Assembly: GCF_028640845.1 (NCBI RefSeq)
Contig: NC_080539.1
Location: 106,232,554-106,296,553 of the forward strand
DNA length: 64,000 bases
From: Ahaetulla prasina
Taxonomy: Eukaryota; Chordata; Lepidosauria; Squamata; Colubridae
Direction of reading: 5' to 3'
Shown: positions 7,974 to 59,600 of the stretch, one piece after another
How the letters are laid out: every line of letters starts with the position of its first letter
Numbering within the stretch: the first letter of the stretch is position 1
Position numbers and translations under genes: made by a program
Notes under the pieces: model-generated
The model's database searches: none
What the model was told of the DNA's origin: nothing
What the model saw: the letters and a program-made list of their open reading frames with translations, nothing else

Positions 7974-8332
7974 ACTGGTGCTGAAGAAGACTCCTGCGAG
8001 TCCCTTGGACTGCAAGGTGATCAAACTGGTCAGTCCTAGAGGAGATCAACCCTGACTGCTCTTTAGAACACCAGATCCTAAAGATGAAACTCCTATACTT
8101 TGGCCACCTAATGAGAAGGAAGGACTCACTGGAGAAGAGCCTAAGACTGGGAAAGATTGAGGGCAAAAGAAGAATGGGATGACAGAGAACAAGGTGGCTG
8201 GATGGAGTCACTGAAGCAGTAGGCATGAGTTTAAATGGACTCCAGAGGATGGTAGAGGACAGGAAGGCCTGGAGGAACGTTGTCCATGGGGTCGCGATGG
8301 GTCAGACACGACTTCGCAACTAACAACACTGT
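7974..8332 (+). mobile_element. BovB (RTE) LINE 3' end
   Basis: Sequence runs from the RT C-terminus (RRLLRVPWTA-like, FGHLMRRKDSLEKSL) to the hallmark end 'ggggtcgcgatgggtcagac / acgacttcgcaactaac'. The reading frame is broken. It is the same family as 43183-43752 and 45337-45906. Confidence 0.85.
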
Positions 8333-13580: not shown

Positions 13581-13850
13581 CAGTGGTGGGATTCAAATTT
13601 TTTTACTACCAATTCTGTGGGTGTGGCATGGCTTGGTGGGTGTGGCAAGGGAAGGATACTGTAAAATCTCCATTCCCTTCCCATTCCAGGGGAAGGTTAC
13701 TGCAAAATACCCATTTCCTCCCGATCAGCTGGGACTTGGGAGGCAGAGAATAGATGGGGGCAGGGCCAGTCAGAGGTGGTATTTACCGGTTCTCCAAACA
13801 ACTCAAAATTTCCACTACCGGTTCTTATATATATATACCGGTAGTGGAAA
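13581..13850 (-). mobile_element. hAT-like element truncated by AT repeat
   Basis: It begins CAGTGGTGGGATTCAA and continues through the GGTGGGTTTCA family body. It then folds back: 'ttccactaccggttct' is followed after a short (TA)n by its inverse 'accggtagtggaa'. The distal terminus is missing. Confidence 0.7.
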
Positions 13851-13995
<145 letters not shown>

Positions 13996-18490: not shown

Positions 18491-18541
18491 ATGGAAGCCC
18501 GCACCTTCGTCTGGGTTTTCCTCGCCGCTCTACTTAGCTGG
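18491..18541 (+). CDS. CCN2: CCN2 exon 1: signal peptide
   Basis: Seventeen codons, [17 protein letters not shown], a classic hydrophobic secretion signal that continues a few residues into exon 2. The donor is GTAAGT at 18542. This part is poorly conserved with mammals, as expected for a signal peptide. Confidence 0.92.
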
Positions 18542-29815: not shown

Positions 29816-30106
29816 CAGACCAGAGTTGGGTTTCAGCAGGTTCTGACCAGTTCTGGAGAACTGGTAGTGGAAATTTTGAGTAGTTCCGAGAACCAGTAGT
29901 AAAAATTCTGACTGGTACCACCCCCATCTATTCTCTGCCTCCCAAGTCCCAGCTGATTGGGAGGAAATGGGGATTTTACAGTGTCCTTCCCCTGGAGTGT
30001 GGTGGGAATGGAAATTTTACATGCCAAATTTTACATACTTCCCATGCCACGCCCACCAAGCCACACCCACAGAACCGGTAGTGAAAAAATTTGAAACCCA
30101 CCACTG
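29816..30106 (+). mobile_element. hAT-like element, GGTGGGTTTCA family
   Basis: It is flanked by the perfect 8-bp TSD AGTCTGAC (29808-29815 and 30107-30114). Right end TTGAAACCCACCACTG; left end slightly rearranged (CAGACCAGAGTTGGG). Confidence 0.85.
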
Positions 30107-32900: not shown

Positions 32901-32950
32901 CTCCACAACCCCATCTCAGACACAACATCCAGCTTCAAGGCAGAGGTACA

Positions 32951-34163
32951 AAACAATCTATTAAATCTGCCTGTCTTAAATTTGAAGCAGAGAATTGTAG
33001 AGTCATAAAGCTGGAAATAACTTAAGCGGTCATCTAATCTAACCATTTCCAAAGCAGATAATTAATAACCCCCAATCGCTGTCTAAAAGCTTATAATAAA
33101 AGATGACCTCATTCAGTAGGAAAGAGATTCCTCCTAGTGCCATATTTTTAGATGGGCGTGGAAACCCCAGTAGAGTGGGGTCAATTTGGATTATTAAGAT
33201 GATTTTGAATTAATGGTTGCATGACACAGATCCATATGCTCTGCTTGGCTGCCTATCGTCCTTCAAGACCGCTGAGGAGAATGTGCCACAGTAAAGGCCT
33301 GCCAGTTTTTAGGTACCTCGAGATTAGTTAAGTACCGTATTTTTTTGGAGTATAAGACACACCATTTTCCCCCCAAAAAAATCTGGGTGTGTTTTATACT
33401 CTGAATGTAGTCCCGCCCAGCTTCTCAAATGGAGGTTTCAGAGGCTGAAAAAGGATCAGAAACGAAGCTTCAGAAAAGAAGCCCCCAAACAGAGCTTCAG
33501 AAAAGAAGCCTCCAAACAGAGCTTCAAAGGCTTTTTTTCTGAAGCTTTTTTGGAGGCTTTCAGAGGCAGAAAAAAAAAAAAAGCCTGGCACAAAGCTCAC
33601 AACCAAGGAACCTGTTGCTAAAATTCACCTCTGGGAAAAGCTGATTGGGGGTATTCTGGGAGGCCGATCCACCTACCAATCAGCTTTTTTCTTATTTTCC
33701 TCCCCAAAAACGAAGGTGCGTCTTATACTCTGGTGCGTCTTATACTCTGGTGTGTCTTATACTCTAGTGCGTCTTATACTCCGAAAAATACAGTATGTTG
33801 TTTGGGAAACAGAATACCTGTTGGATTCATACCCAGTATTTGGAATCCATTAAGATACCACGAATTATGGACATTTCACTTGTAAAGACTCTCAAGTGCC
33901 ACTATATATCTGCAGCCCTCAAATTATTTGCAGCCAAGCCATTAACACAATTTCTCTATGGTGTCCAGTTAGGCCCCCTCACCAGCTTTGCACCAGTAGA
34001 ATTTATACAATCAAAATATCTAAGACTGGCCCTGCAAGTCCCCAAATGTGTCTCTTACGCCACCTTGACAGACCTCATGAAAGTGGAGGCTAGAGTGTGC
34101 GACCATACTCAATTATCGGTTTGCTCAGATAATTTTTTCCCTCCTGGGCTAGCCTCATTAATC
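32951..34163 (+). repeat. Amplified unit U1
   Basis: First of four copies of a composite unit. It contains a CR1-like tail, 'cctcctagtgccatattttt', a MITE (33335-33797) and an RT-like segment (FAPVEFIQSKYLRLALQVPK). Copies are U2 34164-35041, U3 35042-35880 and U4 36702-37852, and they are very similar to each other. U1 uniquely keeps 'gtgccacagtaaagg'. Confidence 0.85.
33335..33797. mobile_element. TA-flanked MITE, GGAGTATAAGAC family
   Basis: Ends 'taccgtatttttttggagta' and 'actccgaaaaatacagta' are inverted repeats next to TA. The interior repeats 'ttcagaggctgaaaaa' phrases. Other copies are in each U unit and at 57040-57452. Confidence 0.75.
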
Positions 34164-35041
34164 GATTCCTCCTAGTGCCATATTTTTAGATGGGCGTGGA
34201 AACCCCAGTAGAGTGGGGTCAATTTGGATTATTAAGATGATTTTGAATTAATGGTTGCATGACACAGATCCATATGCTCTGCTTGGCTGCCTATCGTCCT
34301 TCAAGACCGCTGAGGAGAATGTGTAAAGGCCTGCCAGTTTTAGGTACCTTGAGATTAGTTAAGTACCGTATTTTTTGGAGTATAAGACACACCATTTCCC
34401 CCCGAAAAAAATCTGGGTGTGTTTTATACCCTGAATGTAGCCCCGCCCAGCTTCTCAAATGGAGGTTTCAGAGGCTGAAAAAAGCAACAGAAAAGAAGCC
34501 CCAAACAGAGTTTCAGAGGCTGAAAAAGCATCAGAAAAGAAGCCCCAAACAGAGTTTCAGAGGCTGAAAAAGCATCAGAAAAGAAGCCCCAAACAGAGTT
34601 TCAGAGGCTGAAAAAGCATCAGAAAAGAAGCCCCAAACAGAGTTTCAGAGGCAGAAAAACAAAGCAAAAAACCAGGCACAGAACTCACAACCAAGGAACC
34701 TGTTGGATTCATACCAGTATTTGGAATCCATTAAGATACCACAATTATGGACATTTCACTTGTAAAGACTCTCAAGTGCCACTATATATCTGCAGCACTC
34801 AAATTATTTGCAGCCAAGCCATTAACACAATTTCTCTATGGTGTCCAGTTAGGCCCCTCTCCAGCTTTGCACCAGTAGAATTTATACAATCAAAATATCT
34901 AAGACTGGCCCTGCAAGTCCCCAAATGTGTCTCTTACGCCACCTTGACAGACCTCATGAAAGTGGAGGCTAGAGTGTGCGACCATACTCAATTATCGGTT
35001 TGCTCAGATAATTTTTTCCTCCTGGGCTAGCCTCATTAATC
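34164..35041 (+). repeat. Amplified unit U2
   Basis: Lacks the first about 200 bp of U1. Its MITE has lost the right terminus and gained a 44-bp tandem repeat. Confidence 0.85.
34462..34655. repeat. 44-bp minisatellite inside U2
   Basis: About four nearly identical copies of a 44-bp unit beginning GAGTTTCAGAGGCTGAAAAA. The corresponding MITE in U1, U3 and U4 has only one. Confidence 0.9.
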
Positions 35042-35880
35042 GATTCCTCCTAGTGCCATATTTTTAGATGGGCGGAAACCCCAGTAGAGTGGGGTCAATT
35101 TGGATTATTAAGATGATTTTGAATTAATGGTTGCATGACACAGATCCATATGTTCTGCTTGGCTGCCTATCGTCCTTCAAGACCGCTGAGGAGAATGTGT
35201 AAAGGCCTGCCAGTTTTTAGGTACCTCGAGATTAGTTAAGTACCGTATTTTTTTGGAGTATAAGACACACCATTTTCCCCCCAAAAAAATCTGGGTGTGT
35301 TTTATACTCTGAATGTAGTCCCGCCCAGCTTCTCAAATGGAGGTTTCAGAGGCTGAAAAAAGCATCAGAAAAGAAGCTTCAGAAAAGAAGCCCCCAAACA
35401 GCACTTCAGAGGCTTTTTTTTTCTGAAGCTGTTTTGGAGGCTTTCAGAGGCAGAAAAAACAAAGCAAAAAAAAACCAGGCACAGAACTCACAACCAAGGA
35501 ACCTGTTGCTAAAATTCACCTCTGGGAACAGCTGATTGGGGGGTATTCTGGGAGGCCGATCCACCTGCCAATCAGCTTTTTTCTTATTTTCCTCCCCAAA
35601 AACTAAGGTGCGTCTTATACTCTGGTGCGTCTTATACTCCGAAAAATACAGTATGTTGTTTGGGAAACAGAATACCTGTTGGATTCATACCCAGTATTTG
35701 GAATCCATTAAGATACCACAAATTATGGACATTTCACTTGTAAAGACTCTCAAGTGCCACTATATATCTGCAGCACTCAAATTATTTGCAGCCAAGCCAT
35801 TAACACAATTTCTCTATGGTGTCCAGTTAGGCCCCCTCTCCAGCTTTGCACCAGTAGAATTTATACAATCAAAATATCTA
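35042..35880 (+). repeat. Amplified unit U3 (3' truncated)
   Basis: Matches U1/U4 until 'caaaatatcta', then switches abruptly to the hybrid hAT-like element at 35893. Confidence 0.85.
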
Positions 35881-35892
35881 GGGATGCAACGC

Positions 35893-35989
35893 CAGGGTGA
35901 AATGCTCGTTTGGACCGGATCGACTGATCCGTAGAGATGGCGGTGGATGGTTCGGAGAACCAGTAGTAAAAATTTGAAACCCACCACTG
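35893..35989. mobile_element. Hybrid hAT-like element with mismatched TSDs
   Basis: The left flank is TGCAACGC (as at the element 38849-39437) and the right flank is ATCCAGTC (as at 38342-38499). The left half matches the 38849 element ('tggaccggatcgactgatcc'). The right half ends 'tgaaacccaccactg'. Confidence 0.8.
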
Positions 35990-35997
35990 ATCCAGTC

Positions 35998-36200
35998 AGA
36001 GCTGAAAAGCTTCTTGGATGAGAAGCGAAACATCTTCAAAGAAAACAAGAAAGTCCAGGTACCTCCTGAAAAATCACTTTGGGACTTCTCTCCAGGTCTT
36101 CCATAAAGCATTGGATGTGATCAGGCCAAAGCACTAAATTAAGCAATGTGTAGTAGGCACAGAGTATCAGCTGGATCCCAGCTTTTATTGAATCCAATTG
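35998..36200 (+). mobile_element. Penelope-like end with hammerhead-like motif, copy 1
   Basis: CTGAAAA (36002-36008), stem GCTTCT...AGAAGC, GAAAC (36027-36031). About 200 bp are duplicated at 38508-38712. The first core motif carries A instead of G at the sixth base, so cleavage activity is unlikely. Confidence 0.6.
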
Positions 36201-36712
36201 TATACCCTACATTATAATAGCAAAAGAAAACTCCATGGACAGTGGAAGCTGTATTCTTTTCTAAAACTCAAAACTTTTGGCTGGCTCAGGCATCCTTCAT
36301 TCTGTCTTTCACATCTGGCTTTAATTGGTAGCTTTCAGGTCTCTAGGAAACAGTACAAAACAAATGCTGATTTGTCAGGATAGGTGAGACGCCAGAGGCT
36401 CCTCTATTCTGTGACGTATCGCCATTTTTTGCTACCCAGTACTGTGGTGACACCAGCAGAAAAAGTTGGTCCATACATGATAGAACTCTTAGACCAACAC
36501 CTTAACCATTACATCGAACTGTGTAAGTACAGCAAATCCAATTGTATACCCTACATTATAATAGCAAAAGAAAACTCCTGGACAGTGGAAGCTGTATTCT
36601 TTTCTAAAACTCAAAACTTTTGGCTGGCTCAGGCATCCTTCATTCTGTCTTTCACATCTGGCTTTAATTGGTAGCTTTCAGGTCTCTAGGAAACAGTACA
36701 AAACAATCTATT
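36191..36712. repeat. Local direct duplication (~175 bp)
   Basis: The segment beginning 'aatccaattgtataccctac' and running to 'ctctaggaaacagtacaaaa' occurs at 36191-36365 and again at 36535-36707, with nearly no differences. Confidence 0.85.
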
Positions 36713-37852
36713 AAATCTGCCTGTCTTAAATTTGAAGCAGAGAATTGTAGAGTCATAAAGCTGGAAATAACTTAAGCGGTCATCTAATCTAACCATTTCC
36801 AAAGCAGATAATTAATAACCCCCAATCGCTGTCTAAAAGCTTATAATAAAAGATGACCTCATTCAGTAGGAAAGAGATTCCTCCTAGTGCCATATTTTTA
36901 GATGGGCGTGGAAACCCCAGTAGAGTGGGGTCAATTTGGATTATTAAGATGATTTTGAATTAATGGTTGCATGACACAGATCCATATGTTCTGCTTGGCT
37001 GCCTATCGTCCTTCAAGACCGCTGAGGAGAATGTGTAAAGGCCTGCCAGTTTTTAGGTACCTTGAGATTAGTTAAGTACCGTATTTTTTTGGAGTATAAG
37101 ACACACCATTTTCCCCCCCAAAAAATCTGGGTGTGTTTTATACTCTGAATGTAGTCCCGCCCAGCTTCTCAAATGGAGGTTTCAGAGGCTGAAAAAAGCA
37201 TCAGAAAAGAAGCCCCCAAACAGAGTTTCAGAGGCTTTTTTTTTCTGAAGCTGTTTCGGAGGCTTTCAGAGGCAGAAAAAACAAAGCAAAAAAAAACCAG
37301 GCACAGAACTCACAACCAAGGAACCTGTTGCTAAAATTCACCTCTGGGAACAGCTGATTGGGGGGTATTCTGGGAGGCCGATCCACCTGCCAATCAGCTT
37401 TTTTCTTATTTTCCTCCCCAAAAACTAAGGTGCGTCTTATACTCTGGTGCGTCTTATACTCCGAAAAATACAGTATGTTGTTTGGGAAACAGAATACCTG
37501 TTGGATTCATACCCAGTATTTGGAATCCATTAAGATACCACGAATTATGGACATTTCACTTGTAAAGACTCTCAAGTGCCACTATATATCTGCAGCACTC
37601 AAATTATTTGCAGCCAAGCCATTAACACAATTTCTCTATGGTGTCCAGTTAGGCCCCCTCTCCAGCTTTGCACCAGTAGAATTTATACAATCAAAATATC
37701 TAAGACTGGCCCTGCAAGTCCCCAAATGTGTCTCTTACGCCACCTTGACAGACCTCATGAAAGTGGAGGCTAGAGTGTGGGCGACCAAACTCAATTATCG
37801 GTTTGCTCAGATAATTTTTTTCCCTCCTTGGGCTAGCCTCATTAATCATGAG
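36702..37852 (+). repeat. Amplified unit U4
   Basis: Full-length like U1. Its RT-like frame is open for 166 codons because 'gggcgaccaaactcaattatc' differs from U1-U3, but it lacks a complete RT domain. Confidence 0.85.
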
Positions 37853-37924
37853 GGATAATTTTCAGTCCATATGGAAACAGGCAGTGCAACTAAAATATCA
37901 TCCTTGAGCTTCTTTCTATGTGTC

Positions 37925-38341
37925 TATGGAGATTCTCAGTCATCCAGGTCATGGTTGTCCCAAAGGTGATTTTTCAGGAGGCAACTGGACTTTCTTGTTT
38001 TTCTTTGAAGACGTTTCGCTTCTCATCCAAGAAGCTTCTTCAGTTCTGACTGGATGATGGGGAATGGCAAAAATTGCAGATTACAGGAACCATTTGTACT
38101 TCAGTTTGAGATGCAGACAACACAGACTCATCCCCAACAGCCTGCGCCTGTCTTCAAAGTTGAACGGACACAGGGCAGAAAATATCTTGCAACCAAGAAG
38201 GTTTCACACACGTTTGCACTATTCAGGTGACCCTGGGGACAACAGATAAACCTCCAAGTGGCCTCAACGACTCCCTAAAAGAATGCAAATGACTAGCTGT
38301 CTGCAAGGAATATAAAGCCTTCCAATCCCCACCATCCAGTC
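37925..38341 (-). mobile_element. Penelope-like segment with canonical hammerhead-like motif
   Basis: On the minus strand at 38043-38010: CTGAAGA, stem GCTTCT / AGAAGC, then GAAACGTC, with a 3-bp stem I (GAA / TTC). On the plus strand, 38064-38249 encodes YRNHLYFSLRCRQHRLIPNS, resembling the N-terminal region of Penelope-like ORFs. Confidence 0.6.
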
Positions 38342-38499
38342 CAGGGATGGGTTCTACTTACCTTTACTACCAGTTTGCAGTGGGATCACGTGTGCATGCG
38401 CTTTCTTCCTGATGATGTCAGGGTCAGTGGGTGGAGCCTATCCCCAGTTTTATTATCGGTTTGCAAGAACCGGTCTGAACCGGGGACAACCCACCACTG
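38342..38499. mobile_element. hAT-like element inserted in Penelope-like sequence
   Basis: Begins CAGGGATGGGTTCTAC, ends CAACCCACCACTG, perfect 8-bp TSD ATCCAGTC at 38334-38341 and 38500-38507. Confidence 0.88.
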
Positions 38500-38507
38500 A
38501 TCCAGTC

Positions 38508-38712
38508 AGAGCTGAAAAAGCTTCTTGGATGAGAAGCGAAACATCTTCAAAGAAAAACAAGAAAGTCCAGGTACCTCCTGAAAAATCACTTTGGGACTTC
38601 TCTCCAGGTCTTCCATAAAGCATTGGATGTGATCAGGCCAAAGCACTAAATTAAGCAATGTGTAGTAGGCACAGAGTATCAGCTGGATCCCAGCTTTTAT
38701 TGAATCCAATTG
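38508..38712 (+). mobile_element. Penelope-like end with hammerhead-like motif, copy 2
   Basis: Duplicate of 35998-36200. CTGAAAA, stem GCTTCT / AGAAGC, then GAAACATC. Confidence 0.6.
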
Positions 38713-38724
38713 TCTCCAAAACGA

Positions 38725-42067: not shown

Positions 42068-42075
42068 GTGCAAAC

Positions 42076-42302
42076 CAGGGGTGAAATCCAGCAGGTTCTG
42101 ACAGGTTCTGGCGAACCGGTAGCAGAAATTTTGAGTAGTTCGGAGAACCAGCAAATACCACCTCTGGCTGGTCCCAGAGTGGGGTGGGAATGGAGATTTT
42201 GCGGTATCCTTCCCCTGCCATGCCCATCAAGCCACGCCCATCAAGCCACACCATGCCCACCAATCCATGCCCGGTAGTAAAAAAAATTGAATTTCACCAC
42301 TG
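42076..42302 (+). mobile_element. hAT-like element A (left flank of duplication)
   Basis: Begins CAGGGGTGAAATCCAGCAGG, ends GAATTTCACCACTG, perfect TSD GTGCAAAC at 42068-42075 and 42303-42310. Confidence 0.9.
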
Positions 42303-43182
42303 GTGCAAACCCCACACTCACCAGCACTGATGATATTACCTAGTTGGATAATGAAATGTCTGGAAGCAAACAACAAAGCTCAGAAGGCACCATTTTTTTT
42401 CTTCACAAAAAAAAAAAATCCTTTCTGAAAGTTGTGTCCTGCTACTTCAACAAAGAGTTGCCTCAGAAAAATTGTCAGGATTCAAAATTCAACAAAGGGA
42501 AAAAAATGTGTCTGAAAAGATTTTTCAGGAATAATCTCTCTTCATACAGTATTTAAAGATGGGAGCTGTTTGTACTGCATACAATTATTCCTTAAGTAAT
42601 CATAATCCTCCCCTCCTCTCCTCAAAATAGGCATGAGACTTTATTGTTACCTACCATAAGTGTTTTTCTGGCCTTCTACTGTCTTTAGTAGCAAGGTATT
42701 TTATTTTCTGATAAATGGATCTTGTTAAAGTCAGTCTTTATTCAGTCCCAGAAAAGTTGTTTGGTATAAACATAAGAGTATTTATTACATGTTCAGTTCC
42801 TATTGACACAATATTGTTCCATGAAACTTGCTACAGTATAAACCTTATCTTCCACATGAACTTGGAGAAATTGTTCTTCAGTCTACTCTCATGGTCCTTG
42901 TGATCCATGGGAAGGGACCTGTTCTACGACTTCCCTGCTTATTAAAGTATATTTTGTACTCAAGATTTTTTTTTTAAGCCAGTGGAACTGGAGAAAAAAA
43001 TTAACTTTACTGAATAAAGCACTGTTGTATATAAATTTTGCATTTCAATTACTGATTTCTCATATTTTTTTAATACGTTGTTCATCAGCCAGACTGGCAT
43101 AGATAATTGAGTTTATAAATTGAATAATGGAGTAAATGAGTTTTATTCTATGGGATGCTTATTTATATAATTTATCCTATGC

Positions 43183-43752
43183 ACCGCAGATGGGGACTGC
43201 AGCCAAGAAATTAAAAGACTATTGCTCCTGGGGAGAAAAGCTATGGCAAATCTAGACAGCATACTAAAAAGCAGAGATATCACCCTCCCAACAAAAGTGC
43301 GTATAGTCAAGGCTATGGTTTTCCCAGTTGCAATGTATGGCTGTGAAAGTTGGACCATAAGAAAGGCTGAGAGCCAAAGAATTGAGGCCTTTGAACTCTG
43401 ATGCTGGAGAAGACTCCTGCGAGTCCCTTGGACTGCAAGGCAATCAAACCCATCAGTCCTAAAGGAGATCAACCCTGACTGCTCTTAAGAAGGCCAGATC
43501 CTGAAGATGAAACTCAAATACTTTGGCCACCTAATGAGAAGGAAGGACTCACTGGAGAAGAGCCTAATGCTGGGAAAGACTGAGGGCAAAAGAAGAAGGG
43601 GATGACAGAGAATGAGGTGGCTGGATGGAGTCACCGAAGCAGTCAGCGTGAGCTTAAATGGACTCCAGAGGATGATAGGAAGGCCTGGAGGAACATTGTC
43701 CGTGGGGTCGCGATGGGTTGGACACGACTTTGCAACTAATACTAACAACAAA
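43183..43752 (+). mobile_element. BovB (RTE) LINE 3' end
   Basis: Encodes broken RT pieces (YGCESWTIRKAESQRIEAFE, YFGHLMRRKDSLEKSL) and ends 'gggttggacacgactttgca'. Frames carry stops. Confidence 0.88.
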
Positions 43753-43894
43753 AATATGTGCCCAACTAGGCATATCTGCAAATCCTCACTTCCACAAAAC
43801 GAAGGCCAGAATTTATATCTATATTTGCATTCAGCCATAGAACATACACAAATCTTGCTCATGCCTGTTCAGATGTATGAATGGCTAATCAAAT

Positions 43895-44104
43895 GCAGCA
43901 GTGACCCCCAACTTTTCTGGCTTTGTGGACCAGCAATGGTGGTGGCAGCAAGGGTAGAGGGAATGGGATGGTTTCATGTGTGCTCCCATTGCTTGAGCAA
44001 ATGGAGCTTTACACGCTCACGCTTACTCACTGCTTGCGTAGATCAGTTCCTAACAGGCCACGGACTGGTACTAGTCTGCAGACTGGCAGCTGGGGACCCC
44101 TGAA
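43895..44104. mobile_element. hAT-like MITE, CCCCAAC family
   Basis: Begins CAGTGACCCCCAACTTTTC, ends GCTGGGGACCCCTG. Duplicated at 46049-46258. Confidence 0.7.
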
Positions 44105-44212
44105 ACAGTATCTGGGGATATGATGGCAGTATCAAAAACATGACATGAATATTATGTAAGTATTGCACCAACACGATGCAATCATCTTTTATGTTTTCAG
44201 GAACATGCAGTC

Positions 44213-44446
44213 CAGAGGTGGGTTTCAGCAGGTTCTGATCAGTTCTGGAGAACCAGTAGTGGAAATTCTGAGTAGTTCGGAGAACCAGCAAATACCACCT
44301 CTGGCTGGTCCCAGAGTGGGGTGGGAATGGAGATTTTACAGTATCCTTCCCTGTCACGCCACCAAGCCACGCCCATCAAGCCACACCATGCCCACCAAGC
44401 CATGCCATGCCCACAGAACCAGTAGTAAAAATGAATTTCACCACTG
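44213..44446 (+). mobile_element. hAT-like element B, recombinant junction
   Basis: The left flank ATGCAGTC (44205-44212) equals that of element C. The right flank GTGCAAAC (44447-44454) equals that of element A. The left end is C-like (CAGAGGTGGGTTTCAGC) and the right end is A-like (GAATTTCACCACTG). Confidence 0.92.
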
Positions 44447-46366
44447 GTGCAAACCCCACACTCACCAGCACTGATGATATTACCTAGTTGGATAATGAAA
44501 TGTCTGGAAGCAAACAACAAAGCTCAGAAGGCACCATTTTTTTTCTTCACAAAAAAAAAAATCCTTTCTGAAAGTTGTGTCCTGCTACTTCAACAAAGAG
44601 TTGCTTCGGAAAAATTGTCAGGATTCAAAATTCAACAAAGGGAAAAAAATGTGTCTGAAAAGATTTTTCAGGAATAATCTCTCTTCATACAGTATTTAAA
44701 GATGGGAGCTGTTTGTACTGCATACAATTATTCCTTAAGTAATCATAATCCTCCCCTCCTCTCCTCAAAATAGGCATGAGACTTTATTGTTACCTACCAT
44801 AAGTGTTTTTCTGGCCTTCTACTGTCTTTAGTAGCAAGGTATTTTATTTTCTGATAAATGGATCTTGTTAAAGTCAGTCTTTATTCAGTCCCAGAAAAGT
44901 TGTTTGGTATAAACATAAGAGTATTTATTACATGTTCAGTTCCTATTGACACAATATTGTTCCATGAAACTTGCTACAGTATAAACCTTATCCAAATATT
45001 ATCTTCCACATGAACTTGGAGAAATTGTTCTTCAGTCTACTCTCATGGTCCTTGTGATCCATGGGAAGGGACCTGTTCTACGACTTCCCTGCTTATTAAA
45101 GTATATTTTGTACTCAAGATTTTTTTTTTAAGCCAGTGGAACTGGAGAAAAAAATTAACTTTACTGAATAAAGCACTGTTGTATATAAATTTTGCATTTC
45201 AATTACTGATTTCTCATATTTTTTTAATACGTTGTTCATCAGCCAGACTGGCACAGATAATTGAGTTTATAAATTGAATAATGGAGTAAATAAGTTTTAT
45301 TCTATGGGATGCTTATTTATATAATTTATCCTATGCACCGCAGATGGGGACTGCAGCCAAGAAATTAAAAGACTATTGCTCCTAGGAAGAAAAGCTATGG
45401 CAAATCTAGACAGCATACTAAAAAGCAGAGCTATCACCCTCCCAACAAAAGTGAGTATAGTCAAGGCTATGGTTTTCCCAGTTGCAATGTATGGCTGTGA
45501 AAGTTGGACCATAAGAAAGGCTGAGAGCCAAAGAATTGAGGCCTTTGAACTCTGATGCTGGAGAAGACTCCTGCGAGTCCCTTGGACTGCAAGGCAATCA
45601 AACCCATCAGTCCTAAAGGAGATCAACCCTGACTGCTCTTAAGAAGGCCAGATCCTGAAGATGAAACTCAAATACTTTGGCCACCTAATGAGAAGGAAGG
45701 ACTCACTGGAGAAGAGCCTAATGCTGGGAAAGACTGAGGGCAAAAGAAGAAGGGGATGACAGAGAATGAGGTGGCTGGATGGAGTCACCGAAGCAGTCAG
45801 CGTGAGCTTAAATGGACTCCAGAGGATGATAGGAAGGCCTGGAGGAACATTGTCCGTGGGGTCGCGATGGGTTGGACACGACTTCGCAACTAATACTAAC
45901 AACAAAAATATGTGCCCAACTAGGCATATCTGCAAATCCTCACTTCCACAAAACGAAGGCCAGAATTTATATCTATATTTGCATTCAGCCATAGAACATA
46001 CACAAATCTTGCTCATGCCTGTTCAGATGTATGAATGGCTAATCAAATGCAGCAGTGATCCCCAACTTTTCTGGCTTTGTGGACCAGCAATGGTGGTGGC
46101 AGCAAGGGTAGAGGGAATGGGATGGTTTCATGTGTGCTCCCATTGCTTGAGCAAATGGAGCTTTATACGCTCACGCTTACTCACTGCTTGCGTAGATCAG
46201 TTCCTAACAGGCCACGGACTGGTACTAGTCTGCAGACTGGCAGCTGGGGACCCCTGAAACAGTATCTGGGGATATGATGGCAGTATCAAAAACATGACAT
46301 GAATATTATGTAAGTATTGCACCAACACGATGCAATCATCTTTTATGTTTTCAGGAACATGCAGTC
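44447..46366. repeat. Tandem duplication, unit 2
   Basis: Second copy of 42303-44212, including BovB (45337-45906) and the CCCCAAC MITE (46049-46258). Confidence 0.93.
45337..45906 (+). mobile_element. BovB (RTE) LINE 3' end, duplicate
   Basis: Copy of 43183-43752 differing at a few sites (for example agagct vs agagat, gtgagt vs gtgcgt). Confidence 0.88.
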
Positions 46367-46657
46367 CAGAGGTGGGTTTCAGCAGGTTCTGATCAGTTCT
46401 GGAGAACCAGTAGTTCTGAGTAGTTCGGAGAACCGGTAGTAAAAATTCTGATTGGCCCCACCCCAATCTATTCTCTGCCTCCCAAATCCCAGCTGATTGG
46501 GAGGAAATGAGGATTTTACAGTATCCTTCCCCTGGAGTGGGGTGGACGGGAATGGAGATTTTACAGTATCCTTCCCCTGTCACGCCACCAAGCCACGCTC
46601 ACCAAGCCATGCCATGCCCACAGAACCAGTAGTAAAAAAATTTGAAACCCACCACTG
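46367..46657 (+). mobile_element. hAT-like element C (right flank of duplication)
   Basis: Begins CAGAGGTGGGTTTCAGC, ends TTGAAACCCACCACTG, perfect TSD ATGCAGTC at 46359-46366 and 46658-46665. Confidence 0.92.
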
Positions 46658-46807
46658 ATGCAGTCCACAGTATATTAAAGCTGTAATCCTATAACCACAC
46701 AACTGAAAGTAAATTCCATTAATCTTAAAAGAACTTCTGAAATGATATGCATAAATGTGTATATTTTCCTCCCAAAAAATTAAGAATATCCATTAAATTA
46801 TATTCTA

Positions 46808-46813: not shown

Positions 46814-47103
46814 AAATAGAGTGAAAAAAAGTTCAGAAAATGACAATTAAAAAAAACTTTGTATATTACTTATAACTTTTGAAATATACATGCCAATTGG
46901 GTTCACTTGCAGTTAATTTGCTCCTGCCTCTGTTACACAACAGAACAAAACAAAACAAAACAAAACCAACAACAACTCAGGCAGAATAAATTAACTCCTG
47001 AACACTTTTTATACTGTTGAAATCATTGTAAAACTGTTGGGTTTTTTATCCCATTTGATCTGTTGCTTTGATGCTGCAGACAGGCTTTTATAACAGTATA
47101 GAC

Positions 47104-47238
47104 CAGGGGTGTCCAAACTTGGTCCCTTTAAGACTTTTGGACTTCAACTCCCAGAGTCCCTCAGCCAGCAAAGCTGGCTGAGGAACTCTGGGAGTTGAAG
47201 TCCAAAAGTCTTAAAGGGACCAAGTTTGGACACCCCTG
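47104..47238. mobile_element. Near-perfect palindromic MITE, probable ENPP 3' UTR
   Basis: 135 bp, begins CAGGGGTGTCCAAACTTGG, ends CCAAGTTTGGACACCCCTG. Arms are virtually identical. It lies 190-325 bp past the ENPP stop codon. Confidence 0.9.
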
Positions 47239-47428
47239 GATAGACATTTCTATCACATTGAAGAGAATAATAAGGCTGAAAGCTATTTGTCTCTGATATA
47301 GGTGGTCCATTAAATGTCCCTGAGATACAAAATGTGGCACAGTTTCTTCCTTGTTCCCATTTTGTTCCAAGTATCTTCTGAAAAATCTTCTAGCGTGTTT
47401 ACGAAGTCTCTCTTTTTTTGGTACAAAG

Positions 47429-50600: not shown

Positions 50601-53600
50601 GGTCCAGTTCTTGCGAACTGGTAGTAAAACCGGCGAAAGGCTCTGCCCCCCCCCCCATCGTAGACAATCTGCGCATGCGCAGAAGCTTTTGCACATGTGC
50701 AGAAGCACGATGTGTGCAAGAGCAAAGCAAGCGCACACGCGCGATCCCATCGTGAACTGGTAGTAAAGGTAAGTAGAACCCACTCCTGCTTTGAATGGTC
50801 ACTAAATGAGCTGTGGTAAGTACACAGTGGTGGGATTCAAGTCATTTAACAACCGGTTCTCTGCCCTAATGATTTCTTCCAACCACCAGTTCACCAAACT
50901 GCTCAGAAAGTTAACAACCGGTTCTCCCGAAGTGGTGCGAACTGGCTGAATCCCATCACTGTCTGTACACCTATTTAATTGCTGAAAAATAAAATCAATT
51001 AACTGTGTCACTTCAGTGTAATGATTAAGGCACCAATCTTGTAACTAGGAGATTGTGAGTTCTAGTCCCACCTTAGACAAAGCCAGCTGGGGACCTTGGG
51101 CTCTTTCAGTCCTAGGCACTAGACAGTGGCAAACCACTTCCAAACAATTTGCCAACAGAACTTGTCCCAGTAGTTTCCAGAAATCAAGATGGACATGAAG
51201 AGAACATCCCACCTACCCACCCCCCCAAAATATTTGCATTGTAGACCAGGATTTGAATTATTTTTCTCCTGTGTTTCTTTTAAATTTGATTTTATTGTTT
51301 TCAACTCATTTTTGGGGGCCAAGATCTCTCCAAGATCTAAGATTTTGAATATTTTTTATTTGGCCTAGAGTATTAACTATCCACCCCAATTATCAATTTC
51401 ATATTTGATATGTATTTATTTTACCCCTATTTCCATGATTGCTACGTACAGCCTGAATATCAAACTTCAAAAAGATCACGACAGAAATCTCTATATGAGA
51501 TCCATTGGGGGGGAAGGGGATGCAGAATGGTTATCTAAGGGCAAAAAATAATTTTGGTGGTGATATCACAATTATTTATATACTGAATACCTGTAAGACC
51601 CCTATGACATAAATGCCCACATCAACCATAATTAGGACTGTGCTAATGTGTTAAAGTTTATGTCTGGGCTAGAAATGAGGCTTTTTATGTTAAAAGCTAT
51701 GCAAAACATCCTTCCCATTTCAAAACTTTTCCCATATATTCATTTTCATATATTCATATATATATTCATATATTCATTTTCAAGTCTCTGCCCACACATA
51801 TTATAAAAACTAGATATTTGCACTTTTAAAAATCAGCACCTTTTGTGCATTATGTTTCATATATTAGCAGGTTGAACTCACTGTGCAACTTTCACTGTTC
51901 TCTTCTCTGTGAGGTAAAATATAAGATATAACATCAAGGGATTCTTCACATTGCAAAGGCGTCTGGGAAACATTTTTACAACTTGTCAACGTAATGAAGT
52001 AGTGAGTGGGAATCAGGACCGCTGAATTAATGGAGTGCCTGAAATTTAATTTTAAAAGGAAAAAAAAGCAACATTTTCTTGTTAGATGTACTGAGCATAC
52101 TCCATACACCAAAGAAATATACATCTATTTGGTTAAAGCAAAACTATAGCTTTAAAGGATCTGCTATTCCAGTAGCTATAACCCAGGGGTGTCAAACTCA
52201 TGGTGTCATGTTTTCATCATGTGATGTATTGTGACTTTTTTCCCCTTCACTAAAATAGGGGTGAGCATGGCCAGCGTGTGATGCATCTGGCCCATGGGCC
52301 ACAAGCTTGACAGCCCTGATATAAACCATCAGGATGTATCAAGCAGAGGTGGGTTTCAGCAGGTTCTAACCAGTTCTGGAGAACCGGTAGCAGAAATTTT
52401 GAGTAGTTCGGAGAACCAGTAGTAAAAATTCTGGCTGGCCCTGCCTCCATCTATTCTCTGCCTCCAGAGTCCCAGCTGATCAGGAGGAAATGGGGATTTT
52501 GCAGTAACCTTCCCCTGGAGTGGGGTGGGAATGGAGACTTTACAGTATCCTTCCCCTGCCATGCCCACCAAGCCATGCCCACTAAGCCATGCCCACAGAA
52601 CCAGTAGTAAAAAAATTTGAAACCCACCACTGGTATCAAGCATAGGCTAACTTAGGCCGTCTCCAGGAGAGCTTTCCACCAGGTCCGCCTGGTGCGCCAA
52701 TTGCGCCCCTTTCTAGACCGGGATGCCTTGTGCACAGTCACTCACGCCCTTGTGACGTCTCGTCTGGACTACTGCAATGCTCTCTACATGGGGCTCCCCT
52801 TGAGGGGCATCCGGAGGCTACAGTTAGTCCAGAATGCAGCTGCGCGGGTGATTGAGGGAGCCCCTCGTGGCTCCCGAGTGACACCTATCCTGCGCCGCCC
52901 CCTCGCTGTACCTGTGGCCTTCCGGGTGCGCTTCAAGGTGTTGGTGAATGTCTTTAAAGCGCTCCATGGCATAGGGCCGGGATACTTACGGGACCGCCTG
53001 CTGCTACCGAATACCTCTCACCGACCCGTGCGCTCTCACAGAGAGGGGCTCCTCAGGGTGCCGTCGGCGCGACAGTGTCGTCTGGCGGCGCCCAGGAAGG
53101 GCCTTCTCTGTGGGGCTCCGCCCTCTGGAACGAACTCCCCAGGACTTCGTCAACTTCGGACCTCCAACCTTTCGCGAGCTTAAAACCTACTTATTCATCT
53201 GCGCTGGACTGGGTTAGTGTTTTAATGGGTTTTAATGGGTTTTTAGCTCTAAATTTTAATTCTGGCCAATTTTAATAAGTTTTTTAATTGTATTTTAATT
53301 TGTATTTATAGTATTGTATTTTTACCTGGCTGTGAACCGCCCTGAGTCCTTCGGGAGAAGGGCGGTATACAAATTTAAATAATAATAAATAAATAAATAA
53401 TAACTTACACTTGAACCTCCAATGAAGTAATGCAGCCTCTTAGAGGGAGCAGATCTCCCTTGCTAAACCAATTCCACAAGCTATTAGTGAAATTATTTCC
53501 AGGTACATTCAAAGAACTGGTTATAAACCTTTAAAACTATATGTAATGAGGTCAGACATTTTTTTTCCTTTCAGTCAGTCTGGGCTTCACAATCTCCAAG

Positions 53601-56600
53601 CGAATTTATTTTCTCAAATCACACTTTTGAAATTATATTTTATAGAAACAGAAATCATGGGATTCTCCATTCCCTGTTCCAACTTGTAGATATCATTTTA
53701 ATGATGTGCGAATGATGTTTTCAAAATGTACTTGAAATGCATTTCTCTTTTCTAAATCTTATAATTACTGTATTTTTTGGAGCATAACATAACATAACAT
53801 AACATAACATCAGAGTTGGAAGGGACCTTGGAGGCCTTCTAGTCCAACCCCCTGCCCAGGCAGGAAACCCTACACCATCTCAGTCAGATGGTTATCCAAC
53901 ATTTTCTTAAAAATTTCCAGTGTTGGAGCATTCACAACTTCTGAAGGCAAGTCGTTCCACTTATTAATTGTTCTAACTGTCAGGAAATTTCTCCTTAGTT
54001 CTAAGTTGCTTCTTTCCTTGATCAGTTTCCACCCATTGCTTCTTGTTCTACCCTCAGGTGCTTTGGAGAACAGCCCAACTCCCACTTCTCTGTGGCAGCC
54101 CCTGAGATATTGGAACACTGCTATCATGTCTCCCCTAGTCCTTCTTTTTGTTAAACTAGACATACCCAGTTCCTGCAACCGTTCTTCATATGTTTTATCC
54201 TCCAGTCCCTAATCATCTTTGTTGCTCTTCTCTGCACTCTTTCTAGAGTCTCAACATCTTTTTTACATCGTGGCGACCAAAACTGGATGCAATATTCCAA
54301 GTGTGGCCTTACCAAGGCATTATAAAGTGGTACTAGCACTTCACGTGATCTTGATTCTATCCCTCTGTTTATGCAGCCCAGAACTGTGTTGGCTTTTTTA
54401 ACAGCTGCTGCACACTGCTGGCTCATATCTAGATGGTTATCCACTAGGACTCCAAGATCCCTCTCACAGGTACTACTATTGAGCAAGGTACCACATATAC
54501 GGTACTGGTGCATTTTGTTTTTGGCCTAAATGTAGAACCTTACTTTTTCACTGTTGAATTTCATTTTGTTAGATAGCGCCCAATGTTCAAGTCTGTCAAG
54601 ATCTTTCTGTAACTTGAGCCTATCTTCTGGAGTGTTAGCTATTCCTGCCAGCTTGGTGTCATCTGCAAATTTGATGAGTTCCCCATCTATCCCTCGACCA
54701 AGTCATTCATGAAGATGTTGAAGAGTACTGGGCCTAGAACAGAGCCTTGGGGTACTCCACTGCATACTTCCCTCCATGTGGATGTAGTTCCGTTGAGGAC
54801 TACATGTTGAGTGCGGTTGGTCAGCCAGTTACGAATCCATCTGGTGGTGGTGCTGTCTAACCCACATTTTCTACTTTATCTAGTAGTAGGTTATGGTCTA
54901 CTTTATCAAATGCTTTACTGAAGTCCAAGTAAATTATATCAACAGCATTCCTCTGGTCTACTAATTTTGTCATTTTGTCAAAGAATGCGATAAGATTAGT
55001 CTGGCATGATCTGTTTTGACAAACCCATGTTGGCTTTTGGTTATTACTTTGTTTGCTTCTAGGTGTTCGGTGATTCGTTGCTTGATTATCTTTTCCAGAA
55101 TCTTCCCGGTATTGAGGTCAGACTGATAGGTCTGTAGTTTCCTGGATCTGTTTTTCCTTTTTGAAGATGGGAACTACATCAGCTCTTTTCCAGTCCTCTG
55201 GCAGCTCCCTGTGCTCCAGGATCTTTGAAAGATATAGTTCAGTGGTTCTGAGATCACGTCTGCCAGTTCCTTCAGAACCTTGGGGTGTAATCCATCCGGT
55301 CCTGGTGATTTGAACTCGTCTAGGGTAGACAGGTGTTCACTTACCATTTTCTTCCCTATTTTAACTTGTGTTTCTAATCTGTTTTTGTAGTGCTGTTTTG
55401 ATAGGTTGGATTGTTTTTCCTTTTGTGTAAAGACAGATGCAAAATATGAGTTGAGTAGATCTGCTTTCTCCCTGTTGCTTGTCATCTTCTTGCCACTTTC
55501 TCCCAGCAATGGGCCAATTGTTTCCTTGACTTTTTTCTTGTTTTTAACATGTTGGAAGAAGCTTTTATTATTTTTACTTTTGTCGCTAGCCTTTGTTCAT
55601 TGTGAGCCTTAGCTTTCCTCACTTCATCTTTACAGGCTCGGGCTGTTGCTGATATTCTGCCTTAGTTATTTGCCCCTCTTTCCACTTTTTATATTTGTCC
55701 TTTTGTCTTTCAATTTGTCAGATAGTTCTTTATGCATCCATGCTGGTTTCTTTTGTGATCTACTATTTTCTTCTTCATTGGTATTGTGTTAGACTGTGCT
55801 TTTATAATCTCACTTTTCAAAATTTCCCAAGCTTCTTGAGTTGTTTTCCCCCTGAGGATTCTCATCCATTGAATCCTTCTCAAGATCTCTCTAAGTTTAT
55901 TGAAATTAGCTCTCTTAAAGTCCAAGACTCTAGTTTGACTTTGTTCTACTACTTGTATTTGCTTAATGTTGAATTCCAATATTGCGTGGTCACTTGCCCC
56001 AAGGTTCCTGTAGCTTCAACACCTTCTATCATTTCATCTCTGTTAGTGAGAATTAAGTCCAATATGGCTGATCCTTGTCGCCTTCTCTATTTTTTGGGAA
56101 ACAAAGTTGTCTGCTAGGTTTGTTAGGAACCTGTTGGATCTTCCACTTGGTGCAGAGTTTGTTTCCCAGTTGATGTCAGGGTAGTTAAAATCCCCCATTA
56201 CTACTGTGATGTGCTTCCTACATACCTTAGTTAGCTGACTAGCAAAAAGTTCATCTACTTCCTCTGTTTGGTTGGGTGGCCTATAGTATAGACCTATGGC
56301 AATATCGTTTTTCACCCCTTTTATATTGGCCCAAATACATTCAAGATGATTTTCATCATTGTTGTGCTCTATTTCTGTAGAGATGTAGTTATTTCTTATA
56401 TATAGTGCAACTCCACCTCCTCTTTTATTTGGTCTATTTCTTTTAAATAATTTATATCCCTCTAGCTGTATGTTCCATTTGTCAGTTTCATCCCACCAAG
56501 TTTCCGTAATGGCAACAATATCATATCTACCCTCATTTACTTGGATTTCTAATTCACCCTGTTTATTCCTCATACTCTGTGCATTGGTGTATAGACATTT

Positions 56601-59600
56601 GAGTCCATTTGGATTGATTTTGTGTTTACTGTCTACATAACCTGTGTTGACTGCCCCTACTTTCATGCCACCTGTTGGTTTAGTGCACATGGTATGGCAC
56701 TCACTGTTAAATGCTTGGTTTTGCTTGATAGCATGGTTGATAGTCTTACCCATACAGACATCTATGTTACATGCACTGATAACCCTTTTAGTTTTCGATT
56801 GCTGGGGACAGAAATTTTCTATATCAGTTAATTCTCTGTCCCCACTGTTCAGTTTAAATGTTTATCCAGAAAATCTGTGAATGTATTGCTAAGTAACTCA
56901 GTCCCTTTCTTTGATGGATGCAATCCATCTCTTTTGTACAATTTTTCATTGGACCAGTTGCAGACATCATGACTAATAAAACCAAAGCCTTCCCTTTTAC
57001 ACCACTCCTTTAGCCACACATTAAACTCCACTAAGTGGGTTAAGATGTACCTTTTTCCCCCAAAAAAGAGGGTAAAAATCTGGGTGTGTCTTATACTCCA
57101 AATGTAGCCCCACCGAGCTTCTCAAACGGAGGTTTCAGAAGCTGAAAGAAGCTTCAGAAAAGAAGCTCCCAAACAGAGCTTCAGAGGCTTTTTTACTGAA
57201 GTTCTGTTTTGGAGGCTTTCAGAGGCAGAAAAAAGTTTTTTTCTGAAACAGAGTTTCAGAGGCAGAAAAAAAAAGCAAAAAAAAAAAACAACAAGGCACA
57301 GAGCTCACAACCAAGGAACCTGTTGCTAAAATTTATCTCTGGGAACAGCTGATTGGGGGTATTCTGGGAGGCCAATCCACTTGCCAATCAGCTTTTTTCT
57401 TATTTTCCTCCCCAAAAACTAAGGTGCGTCTTATACTCCAAAAAATACAGCACTGCTAAAATGATGATGGACATTCTTTATGGAAAAATGGTGTATACTT
57501 TTAATACAGCAATGAATAAGATACCTCCACATGATTTGAGGCATTCATACGATAGAAGCAGGATTGCACTGTTGCAATACAAGCTCTACTAGATTCATGG
57601 TTATCCGTGAATATCATGATGCACATGTAAAAGGGATACCGAGACACTGAAATGGTGTAGGGTTTCCTGCCAAGGCAGGGGGTTGGACTAGAAGACCTCC
57701 AAGGTCCCTTCCAACTCTGTTATTATGCTTCATTATTTGTTTCTCCTTTGATATTCCTCCCCTGCTTCTCCATGGATGCCTGCAATAAGGGCTGCCCACA
57801 ACACTTAGAATGTTAATGTATGTTCCTTGATACCAACTTGAACCAATACGCTTAGATTATTGTGAACATTGATATGGTTTCACCCACCAGCTTTTAAATA
57901 CCATATCAATATATCTTTCATACACTTTGAAATAAAATTAAATAGTATTAAAATACTTATTTGAATGTAATTTTCTTTTTAAAAAGAAAATAGTTTACAC
58001 ATGTTAAAATCCATATAGTGCATTGATACATATGAAAGAAGCCACAAAGGGATTGATAGGCTCAGTATAAATGGCTAATTGTCTTACGTCTTCAGGACAT
58101 ACATTCTGTTAAGTCAGAAAAATATATTTTAAAGGAGGTTTGTTCCTGTAAATTAAATTAAAGCAGTTATTTCAATACAAAGTCTCTCACACACAAAAAA
58201 GTTAAGAGAGATATCTACCTACCGTCTTATTTTCTCTGGTGTATCATATAGGCCATCGTAGTCGTAATCAAATATAGGACCTGTGATCACATTTACACCA
58301 TTCCTGGCTGCAGCATATGATGGCAGTAGGACAGCATTAAAATATTCCCAAATCACTGAAAGAATAAGGGAGAATTTTACTAAGAAAATGTCATGATCTG
58401 AAGAGAACCAAGCCCATCCGTGGTATTGCTGGTTGAAGGTCTAGTTTTTTGTTATTGTTATTCTATGACCATGGGCTTATTTATTTTATTTATTTATCAA
58501 AACAGTATGAATTTCATAACTGTTTCCGAGTATGTTGGAACTACACAGTCCTACCCAATATTTTGCGCTTGGCATACTGGAGATCTAAAGCTTGGCATAT
58601 GAGCTTCCAAGTACAAGAGATATTTAGGAATGAATTTAACTTTGATACACATATACTTCCAAATATAAAGCAAACAATGATATTTGCTTTGACCATCTTT
58701 TTTTATAATTCTTGAATGGGCTGATATTCTTTGCAGGGATGATCTGTAATTTAGAAATTTTCCTACTCTTTTGAAATAGATAATCAGTAGAAAATATTTC
58801 TTCCACTACAAACATTTTCCATCATGGTTTTACATAAAGACTATCTTGGCTAGTTTGAGAAACGCCCTTGGAGCCTAGGCAACCAAGAAAGCACAATGTT
58901 CAATCTATGGCCATAGGATTATCCATCTCTGCATTAAAGAACTGAAAATAATTCTTGATAAAACTATTTAGAAGTCCCTTTGAGCTCAATGGGCTTACTC
59001 CCAAGTAAATAGAAAGATTATTTTAGCCTTCCAATTTTAGAAGTGCCTTGCTTGTATGAGTGCAGAAGCTACATAAAGGAACAGAAGGTCTATTTCTGTT
59101 TTGAGTTGTTAAGCCATGGTATGATCATTTGAAGTAGACTGCAGACATACAGAATCAAGAATGCAGACTTTCAGGAAATTGTCACGAAGCTGAAGAATTG
59201 TAGTACAATGTAGACCAACAGCACCATCATTCATTGGACATTACTACATGTACATTATTGCAGACACAATCATGAGAGCATAATTTTAGATAATTATATT
59301 TTATTAGCTTGCATTTTTCCCATAAAAAGAAGCAAAAGCCCATAATAAATTAGCCTTTACCTTGAAAAGCAGAATACATTGGTGCTATGTTGCTTGAGAG
59401 AAATCCTTCATAATAGTTTTTCTTATCTTCTTTAATCAAATCTAGAAACATAAAAATATATAAGCAAACATTTAAAACTGATATCAATGTATATCAAGTG
59501 ACTGAAAAACCTTTCTAGTTTTTGAATTAAATACATGGTACCAAATATTTAACTCCAAATATGTTCAAGACTCAGACAGACATGTTTGCTTATGTATGTG

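Follow-up and report, generated by a model that had tools for sequence, protein, structure and literature searches.

How a 1.9-kb interval came to be present twice, separated by three related transposon copies of which the middle one has two different flanks, is the question raised by this locus of Ahaetulla prasina. In the window, the whole stretch of 64,000 nucleotides of contig NC_080539.1 that was analysed, the order on the + strand is element A (42076-42302), interval, element B (44213-44446), interval, element C (46367-46657). The duplicated interval starts about 20 kb 3' of a CCN-family gene, on which no effect is claimed; the last CCN exon had no matches at E 0.001 when searched against PDB sequences. 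Besides this structure, the locus has swapped target-site duplications (TSDs), mixed terminal repeats and a patchwork middle element. Our results indicate that an unequal exchange between A and C very probably duplicated the interval and left B as a hybrid.

Elements and target sites

The elements, units and bordering 8-mers are the following.

42068..42075, + strand: left TSD of A, GTGCAAAC
42076..42302, + strand: A, apparent non-autonomous hAT-type copy, 227 bp, both terminal repeats of the GGTGAAATYCA type (13/15)
42303..42310, + strand: right TSD of A, GTGCAAAC, also the first bases of unit 1
42303..44212, + strand: unit 1, 1910 bp including both bordering 8-mers, aligned to unit 2
44205..44212, + strand: 8-mer left of B, ATGCAGTC, C's target-site sequence
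44213..44446, + strand: B, 234-bp hybrid with a C-like left end, an A-like right end and a patchwork between
44447..44454, + strand: 8-mer right of B, GTGCAAAC, A's target-site sequence
44447..46366, + strand: unit 2, 1920 bp including both bordering 8-mers, aligned to unit 1
46359..46366, + strand: left TSD of C, ATGCAGTC
46367..46657, + strand: C, 291 bp, longer form of the family, both terminal repeats of the GGTGGGTTTCA type (14/15)
46658..46665, + strand: right TSD of C, ATGCAGTC

As stated in the preliminary description, A and C are each enclosed by perfectly matching TSDs (8/8 in both cases), and B is flanked by C's 8-mer on the left and by A's on the right. A scan of the + strand of the window placed GTGCAAAC at 42068, 42303 and 44447, with an extra site at 6742, and ATGCAGTC at 44205, 46359 and 46658 only. 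The TSDs legibly record both parents of the exchange. The terminal inverted repeats of B agreed independently with the earlier view that its left end is C-like and its right end A-like, matching each other at 11/15 positions, with the left repeat of C's type and the right of A's. That B inserted on its own was rejected, since its two 8-mers differ, each belonging to another element.

On their sequence, A and C are non-autonomous hAT-type copies. Ends like CAGRGKTG...CACTG are typical of hAT, and such ends, with short CAG/CA inverted repeats, were present in copies A to F. In addition, 8-bp TSDs were found when seven copies were compared. Among the further copies, the left and right terminal repeats matched at 14/15 positions in D, 13/15 in E, 9/15 in F and 3/15 in G; the low scores reflect an extra base that puts F out of step and the loss of the left end of G. 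The TSDs matched at 8/8 positions in D (GTATCAAG), at 7/8 in F and at 4/8 in E at the set ends, and E has AGTCTGAC on both sides if five bases are allowed between TSD and terminal repeat. Those of G matched at 0/8, its left end being lost in a TA repeat. The 8-mers around B are alike at 5/8 positions, a match expected for a hybrid. At 227-291 bp, A, B and C are too short to encode a transposase, and A and C lie in direct orientation. Two scans of viral contigs for the element, and Rfam at gathering score, gave no matches.

The duplicated interval

Units 1 and 2 differ by 11 substitutions in 1909 aligned columns (99.4% identity, 0.58% divergence), by one 1-bp indel in a homopolymer and by one 11-bp indel, in line with the 'about a dozen' differences noted earlier. 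Two features lie within them.

~43398-43739, + strand: fragment in unit 1, 89% match to 7975-8323, presumably of the BovB family
44988..44998, + strand: 11 bp of unit 2, missing from unit 1 at 42844

At the 11-bp indel, unit 2 carries TTATC on either side of six bases, which makes it likely that slippage deleted the bases from unit 1, presumably the altered copy. The 11 substitutions showed no significant clustering, either by the largest gap (P = 0.14) or by spacing (P = 0.07). Calling the duplication 'recent' was also fair, since a published squamate rate would give it an age of about 1.2 My; this age is rough because an outgroup copy in the window covers only one of the 11 differences (43731), at which the outgroup base is that of unit 2.

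The patchwork interior of B

The base-by-base alignment of the units and of A, B and C, which the preliminary description had proposed as a check, confirmed its features and in addition revealed that B consists of several tracts, in the order C-A-C-A-C-A.

44213..44268, + strand: C-like tract, all 11 substitution sites as C, with 6 bp kept in B and missing in C
44269..44286, + strand: 18 bp shared exactly by A, B and C, with the first C-to-A switch
44287..44322, + strand: A-like tract in which a 74-bp deletion has its break point
44338..44362, + strand: C-like patch within the A-like half, 6/6 informative characters as C, a private 1-bp indel of B set aside
44373..44398, + strand: A-like tract, sharing with A two substitutions and a 19-bp insertion
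44399..44421, + strand: C-like patch, sharing with C two substitutions and 13 bp that A lacks, gaps placed by hand
44436..44446, + strand: A-like right terminal repeat

Short GCCATGCCCACCAA-type repeats were aligned poorly by automatic means, and gaps were therefore placed by hand. The adopted three-way alignment treats the 74-bp difference as a single event and contains 40 informative characters in 8 runs. Sites 44348 and 44431, labelled as matching neither parent, were excluded before the count, and two B sites that differ from A opposite C's 6-bp gap were left uncounted inside that indel. An automatic three-way alignment (47 characters, 10 runs) was dropped; it inflated the A-like evidence because it paired A and B with the wrong half of the internal repeat in C. 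Identity between A and C is about 83% (166/200), and their longest exact match is the 18 bp at the first switch. Alternative pairwise identities, 203/220 for A/B, 183/210 for A/C and 200/204 for B/C, let gaps absorb mismatches, and 166/200 was adopted for A/C because these mismatches are otherwise hidden. By the gap-absorbing measure B is overall nearer to C than it is to A, in agreement with the C-like patches.

The left 74 bp of B show no substitutions against C and a single 6-bp gap in C, and the 74-bp deletion is common to A and B alone among the seven copies aligned. One switch between parents leaves 10 of the 40 informative characters unexplained, three switches leave 4 and five leave 1. 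The block structure was reached by 1 of 20,000 shuffles, and 1.3% of them gave a one-switch fit equally good, which makes one switch by itself just modestly superior to a random order. Between A and B, 7/147 sites of the right arm are different, compared with 11/1909 in the interval (Fisher P = 1.4e-4, preferred over a Poisson value of 3e-5, which ignores the error of the interval rate), and at all 7 B carries C's base in the three-way alignment. B also has states found in neither A nor C, namely a C missing from a C-run and a shortened A/T-run, and it has TGG opposite CAG in A and a gap in C. This patchwork allows the resolution of the exchange to be read site by site.

Origin of the duplication and known systems

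From these observations we infer the ancestral state, a single event and its molecular route as follows. The ancestral chromosome would have carried A, the 1.9-kb interval and C in the same orientation, A and C being two independent insertions of one non-autonomous hAT family. An exchange in a single germ cell would then have joined C to A across two chromatids or homologues, guided by the similarity of the elements and starting in or near the 18-bp identical stretch. The product would be A - interval - B - interval - C, in which C supplied the left end of B with the adjoining TSD half and A supplied the right end with the other half, and the interior of B would require at least three switches between parents, more simply five. 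NAHR is described as predicting three element copies (PMC3744419). At this locus there are three, the outer two intact and the middle one a hybrid that joins the left side of the right-hand parent to the right side of the left-hand parent.

The unequal crossing-over proposed in the preliminary description thus stands as an exchange, the best supported origin given the three elements, the outer TSDs and the hybrid, but not as a single clean crossover, with 10/40 characters unexplained. In place of one switch point in a homologous stretch, at least two further switches are needed, and B is compatible with an exchange plus patches rather than with a simple crossover. Because one crossover leaves B unexplained, either the event itself was resolved patchily, by patchy heteroduplex repair or repeated template switching, or short C-like patches may have been copied into B by later conversions. 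The 18-bp junction identity and the similarity of about 83% are near the medians of 17 bp and 82.6% given for homologous-type TE-mediated rearrangements in human genomes (PMC9675761). A stretch of >100 bp of perfect identity is said there to be needed for mammalian NAHR; because A and C fall short of it, a classical crossover is not secure, nor is it the sole route, since they are about 83% identical with exact matches of at most 18 bp. Templated re-synthesis (BIR/MMBIR-like) yields the same outline.

A replicative route, in which break-induced replication or microhomology-guided switching from C into A proceeded with several template switches and no meiotic crossover, is plausible at a little under even chances. 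It is favored by the 18-bp identity, the similarity of about 83% and the several switches, and most such TE-mediated events have been argued to be RAD51-independent (PMC9675761). However, the same sequence would result if an ordinary crossover were followed by patchy mismatch repair or, later, by gene conversion, and the alignments hold nothing that singles out replication. A clean crossover in the 18-bp stretch followed by C-to-B conversion patches (44338-44362 and 44399-44421) may likewise account for B, with a probability that falls just short of one half. The excess of A/B differences in the right arm, with C's base in B at every one, points to such patches, but two separate short ones are required within a single 234-bp element, and the data cannot date them relative to the duplication. 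More tentatively, the exchange itself might have been many-switched, by template switching or by patch repair of one heteroduplex over 234 bp, and B would be a fossil intermediate. If so, such hybrids may be common at DNA-transposon-mediated duplications, where one junction is usually assumed.

An assembly artefact is unlikely, in which two haplotypes, A-unit1-C and A-unit2-C, were strung together in an animal with one unit per chromosome, and B arose from a false overlap or a consensus mixed in polishing. Two haplotypes could show a divergence of 0.58%, the level seen between the units, and a mixed consensus would account for the patchwork. However, an 18-bp maximum match between A and C is probably too short for the usual k-mer or accurate-read overlap, and B has states absent from both. 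A transposition of reversed hAT ends, using A's right end and C's left end, is very improbable and was ruled out: the facing ends are one right and one left because the elements are directly oriented, a geometry as in PMC3744419 and PMC4270019, but two copies are predicted, the middle one with one matching and one new flank (PMC3744419), whereas three copies were found, with the flanks of B from A and C and its interior hybrid.

Taken together, the probable exchange between A and C looks like a neutral structural change within DNA rich in repeats, with no function implied, and it suggests that tandem duplications in this genome can start from DNA-transposon copies that are short and diverged. 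In the portions available of the literature searched (including PMC8277862, PMC9675761, PMC4270019, PMC3744419, PMC4963849 and PMC8303610), we found neither a report of this locus nor one of a squamate hAT-mediated exchange with swapped TSDs.

The locus is a fresh instance of a known, ordinary rearrangement type. Similar to human Alu-Alu and LINE-1 rearrangements (PMC9675761), it involves direct-repeat TE copies about 83% alike, an 18-bp junction and one hybrid, whereas the elements here are hAT, the TSDs record the swap, several switches occur and the genome is non-human. CR1 fragments near snake venom phospholipase genes have been named as a possible NAHR substrate (Fujimi et al. 2002 in PMC8303610); that case shares a proposed repeat-mediated duplication in a squamate, but concerns another element type and duplicated genes, and was offered as a possibility. 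Reversed-ends (alternative) transposition has been described for maize Ac/Ds (PMC3744419, PMC4270019), and its duplications are likewise tandem, direct and bordered by hAT elements. They have two copies and an unmatched middle flank, in contrast to the three copies with both flanks accounted for here. The Ac NAHR route, which these sources set against alternative transposition, is drawn in the legend of Figure 9 of PMC4270019 as NAHR that joins nearby Ac elements of sister chromatids and produces a tandem direct duplication. Consistent with this route (PMC4270019, PMC3744419), our locus has hAT elements, a tandem direct duplication, three copies and an element between the units, while here the exchange would be a natural one between diverged non-autonomous copies.

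Arrangement of the duplicated locus

The region 42068-46665 is occupied by three related transposon copies and a segment of about 1.9 kb present twice, in the order A - interval - B - interval - C. Target-site duplications (TSDs) of 8 bp and CAG...CTG-type ends are hallmarks of hAT elements, and the flanks and ends of these copies fit a non-autonomous hAT family. Four further copies (D to G) were compared, and shorter partial matches in the window were left out.

Copies of the family and their TSDs
A, 42076-42302, 227 bp: perfect 8-bp direct repeats GTGCAAAC on both sides (8/8)
B, 44213-44446, 234 bp: left flank ATGCAGTC, right flank GTGCAAAC (5/8)
C, 46367-46657, 291 bp: perfect 8-bp direct repeats ATGCAGTC on both sides (8/8)
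D, 52344-52632: TSD match 8/8
E, 29821-30106: 4/8; read by eye in the alignment, AGTCTGAC stands on both sides when five additional bases are tolerated
F, 5907-5632, minus strand: 7/8
G, 13825-13581, minus strand: 0/8; left end lost into a long TA repeat (region 13581-13994)

The two intervals, 42303-44212 and 44447-46366, compared together with their bordering 8-mers, differed by 11 substitutions in 1909 aligned columns (0.58%), one 1-bp homopolymer indel and one 11-bp indel. The preliminary description had reported TSDs exchanged at B and about a dozen interval differences, and both statements were borne out by the 8-mer positions and the interval alignment; the left flank of B is the 8-mer of C and the right that of A. 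The terminal repeats concur with this swap independently of the 8-mers: both are of one type in A (13/15 left/right match) and of the other type in C (14/15), and B has a C-type left and an A-type right repeat (11/15). In the sequence as supplied, the A-B-C arrangement is real. If all 11 differences postdate the event, its age is about 1.2 My at the squamate rate given in a passage of PMC9447483 (2.4e-9 per site per year), or about 4.1 My at an arbitrary slow rate of 0.7e-9; older allelic differences or later conversion would shift this estimate.

Patchwork interior of the hybrid copy

A and B were set against the proper half of the internal repeat of C, and 40 characters (sites or indels) discriminated A from C. 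The left part of B carries 10 C-like characters, one A-looking (6 bp absent from C only) and one C-like at 44268. These are followed by 13 A-like characters, including a 74-bp deletion confined to A and B among seven aligned copies, then by six C-like (44338-44362), three A-like (44373-44379), three C-like (44399-44421) and three A-like characters (44436-44438), the last reaching the TSD of A. This pattern is non-random, with eight or fewer runs in 1 of 20,000 shuffles. With zero to seven switches between C-like and A-like states, 20, 10, 7, 4, 4, 1, 1, and 0 characters remained unexplained; a one-switch fit no worse than that observed arose in 1.3% of shuffles. The sole residual under five switches is the 6-bp gap, most simply read as a later deletion in C because B has TGG there and not the CAG of A.

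Some states are found in A only (44340, 44362, a 13-bp absence) or in C only (the 6-bp gap, a 4-bp insertion at 44322, T at 44373), and could postdate the duplication. Without them, in a reduced set drawn up by inspection of alignments, the tracts are C (44239, 44255, 44268), A (44287 to the deletion), C (44354, 44358), and A (44376, a 19-bp insertion, the right end); G at 44357 agrees with C, as less clean support for the C-like tract at 44354-44358. Five switches are the simplest fit to all characters; three, the number left in the reduced set, are the cautious minimum.

Between A and B the right arm shows 7 differences in 147 sites, compared with 11 in 1909 for the intervals beside it (Fisher P = 1.4e-4). 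At all seven, B carries the base of C in a three-way alignment, in which the site 44399 depends on a gap set by hand. Some of the seven are sites where A alone deviates from the family; others, in the TCACG-CC stretch (44354-44358), show states common to B and C and missing from D and F. Sequence passing between copies accounts for this better than mutation in A alone. We infer the direction of transfer, from C to B or from a different copy to A, on the grounds that A's private states are absent from B.

Surroundings of the locus

The open frames at 18538-22247 carry successive matches to IGFBP, VWC, TSP1_CCN, and Cys_knot and mark a CCN-family growth-factor gene, presumably CCN2. The interval contains a retrotransposon remnant, which we take to be BovB-like, 89% alike to a second copy at 7975-8323; a Pfam scan of one of its open frames (43485-43865, minus strand), the single frame of the interval covered, gave no hit at E 0.001. 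A LINE-type endonuclease open frame lies at 56043-56858 (minus strand; Exo_endo_phos, E 2e-14). At 47103-47239 there is a near-perfect palindrome (67-nt arms, 99% complementary, 3-nt spacer; a 91% relative at 20281-20429), which resembles a small DNA transposon of the foldback type. Direct duplications of recent origin form a second cluster at 32946-38713, upstream of A by a few kb; this cluster includes a 44-bp tandem repeat (34465-34659; 4.4 copies, 98% match). It may be a more complex instance of the same duplication tendency, or an assembly problem.

Examples of direct duplications in the cluster
35042-35880 / 36876-37702: 97.3%
33816-34499 / 34698-35377: 97.5%
32946-33468 / 36696-37213: 97.7%
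35978-36201 / 38488-38713: 99.1%
36191-36363 / 36535-36706: 99.4%

Probable mechanism of the duplication

An exchange uniting the left portion of C with the right portion of A would yield the observed order, TSDs and ends. The first switch falls within 44269-44286, an 18-bp stretch that is the longest exact match between A and C; their identity outside gaps is 166/200. For homologous-type transposon-mediated rearrangements in human genomes, the relevant part of PMC9675761 gives medians of 17 bp and 82.6% similarity. Since classical NAHR is argued there to need longer identity than this, a meiotic crossover would be no more likely than a replicative or annealing route, and no less. An assembly artefact is possible as the source of the duplication, but exact matches between A and C are limited to 18 bp, and B has states found in neither parent. 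Single-strand annealing alone is set aside, since it yields deletions, whereas the locus is a duplication.

The event is of a known kind. The preliminary description, which proposed unequal crossing-over, read the structure correctly in outline; a single simple switch does not describe B, as it leaves 10 of 40 characters unexplained. What is uncommon here is the preservation of the TSDs of both parents and the patchwork make-up of the hybrid. In the models outlined in part of PMC3744419, NAHR between elements is expected to leave three copies, as at this locus. Reversed-ends transposition, in contrast, leaves two copies, the second with one unmatched flank, which conflicts with the three copies found here and with the flanks of B, both of which are accounted for.
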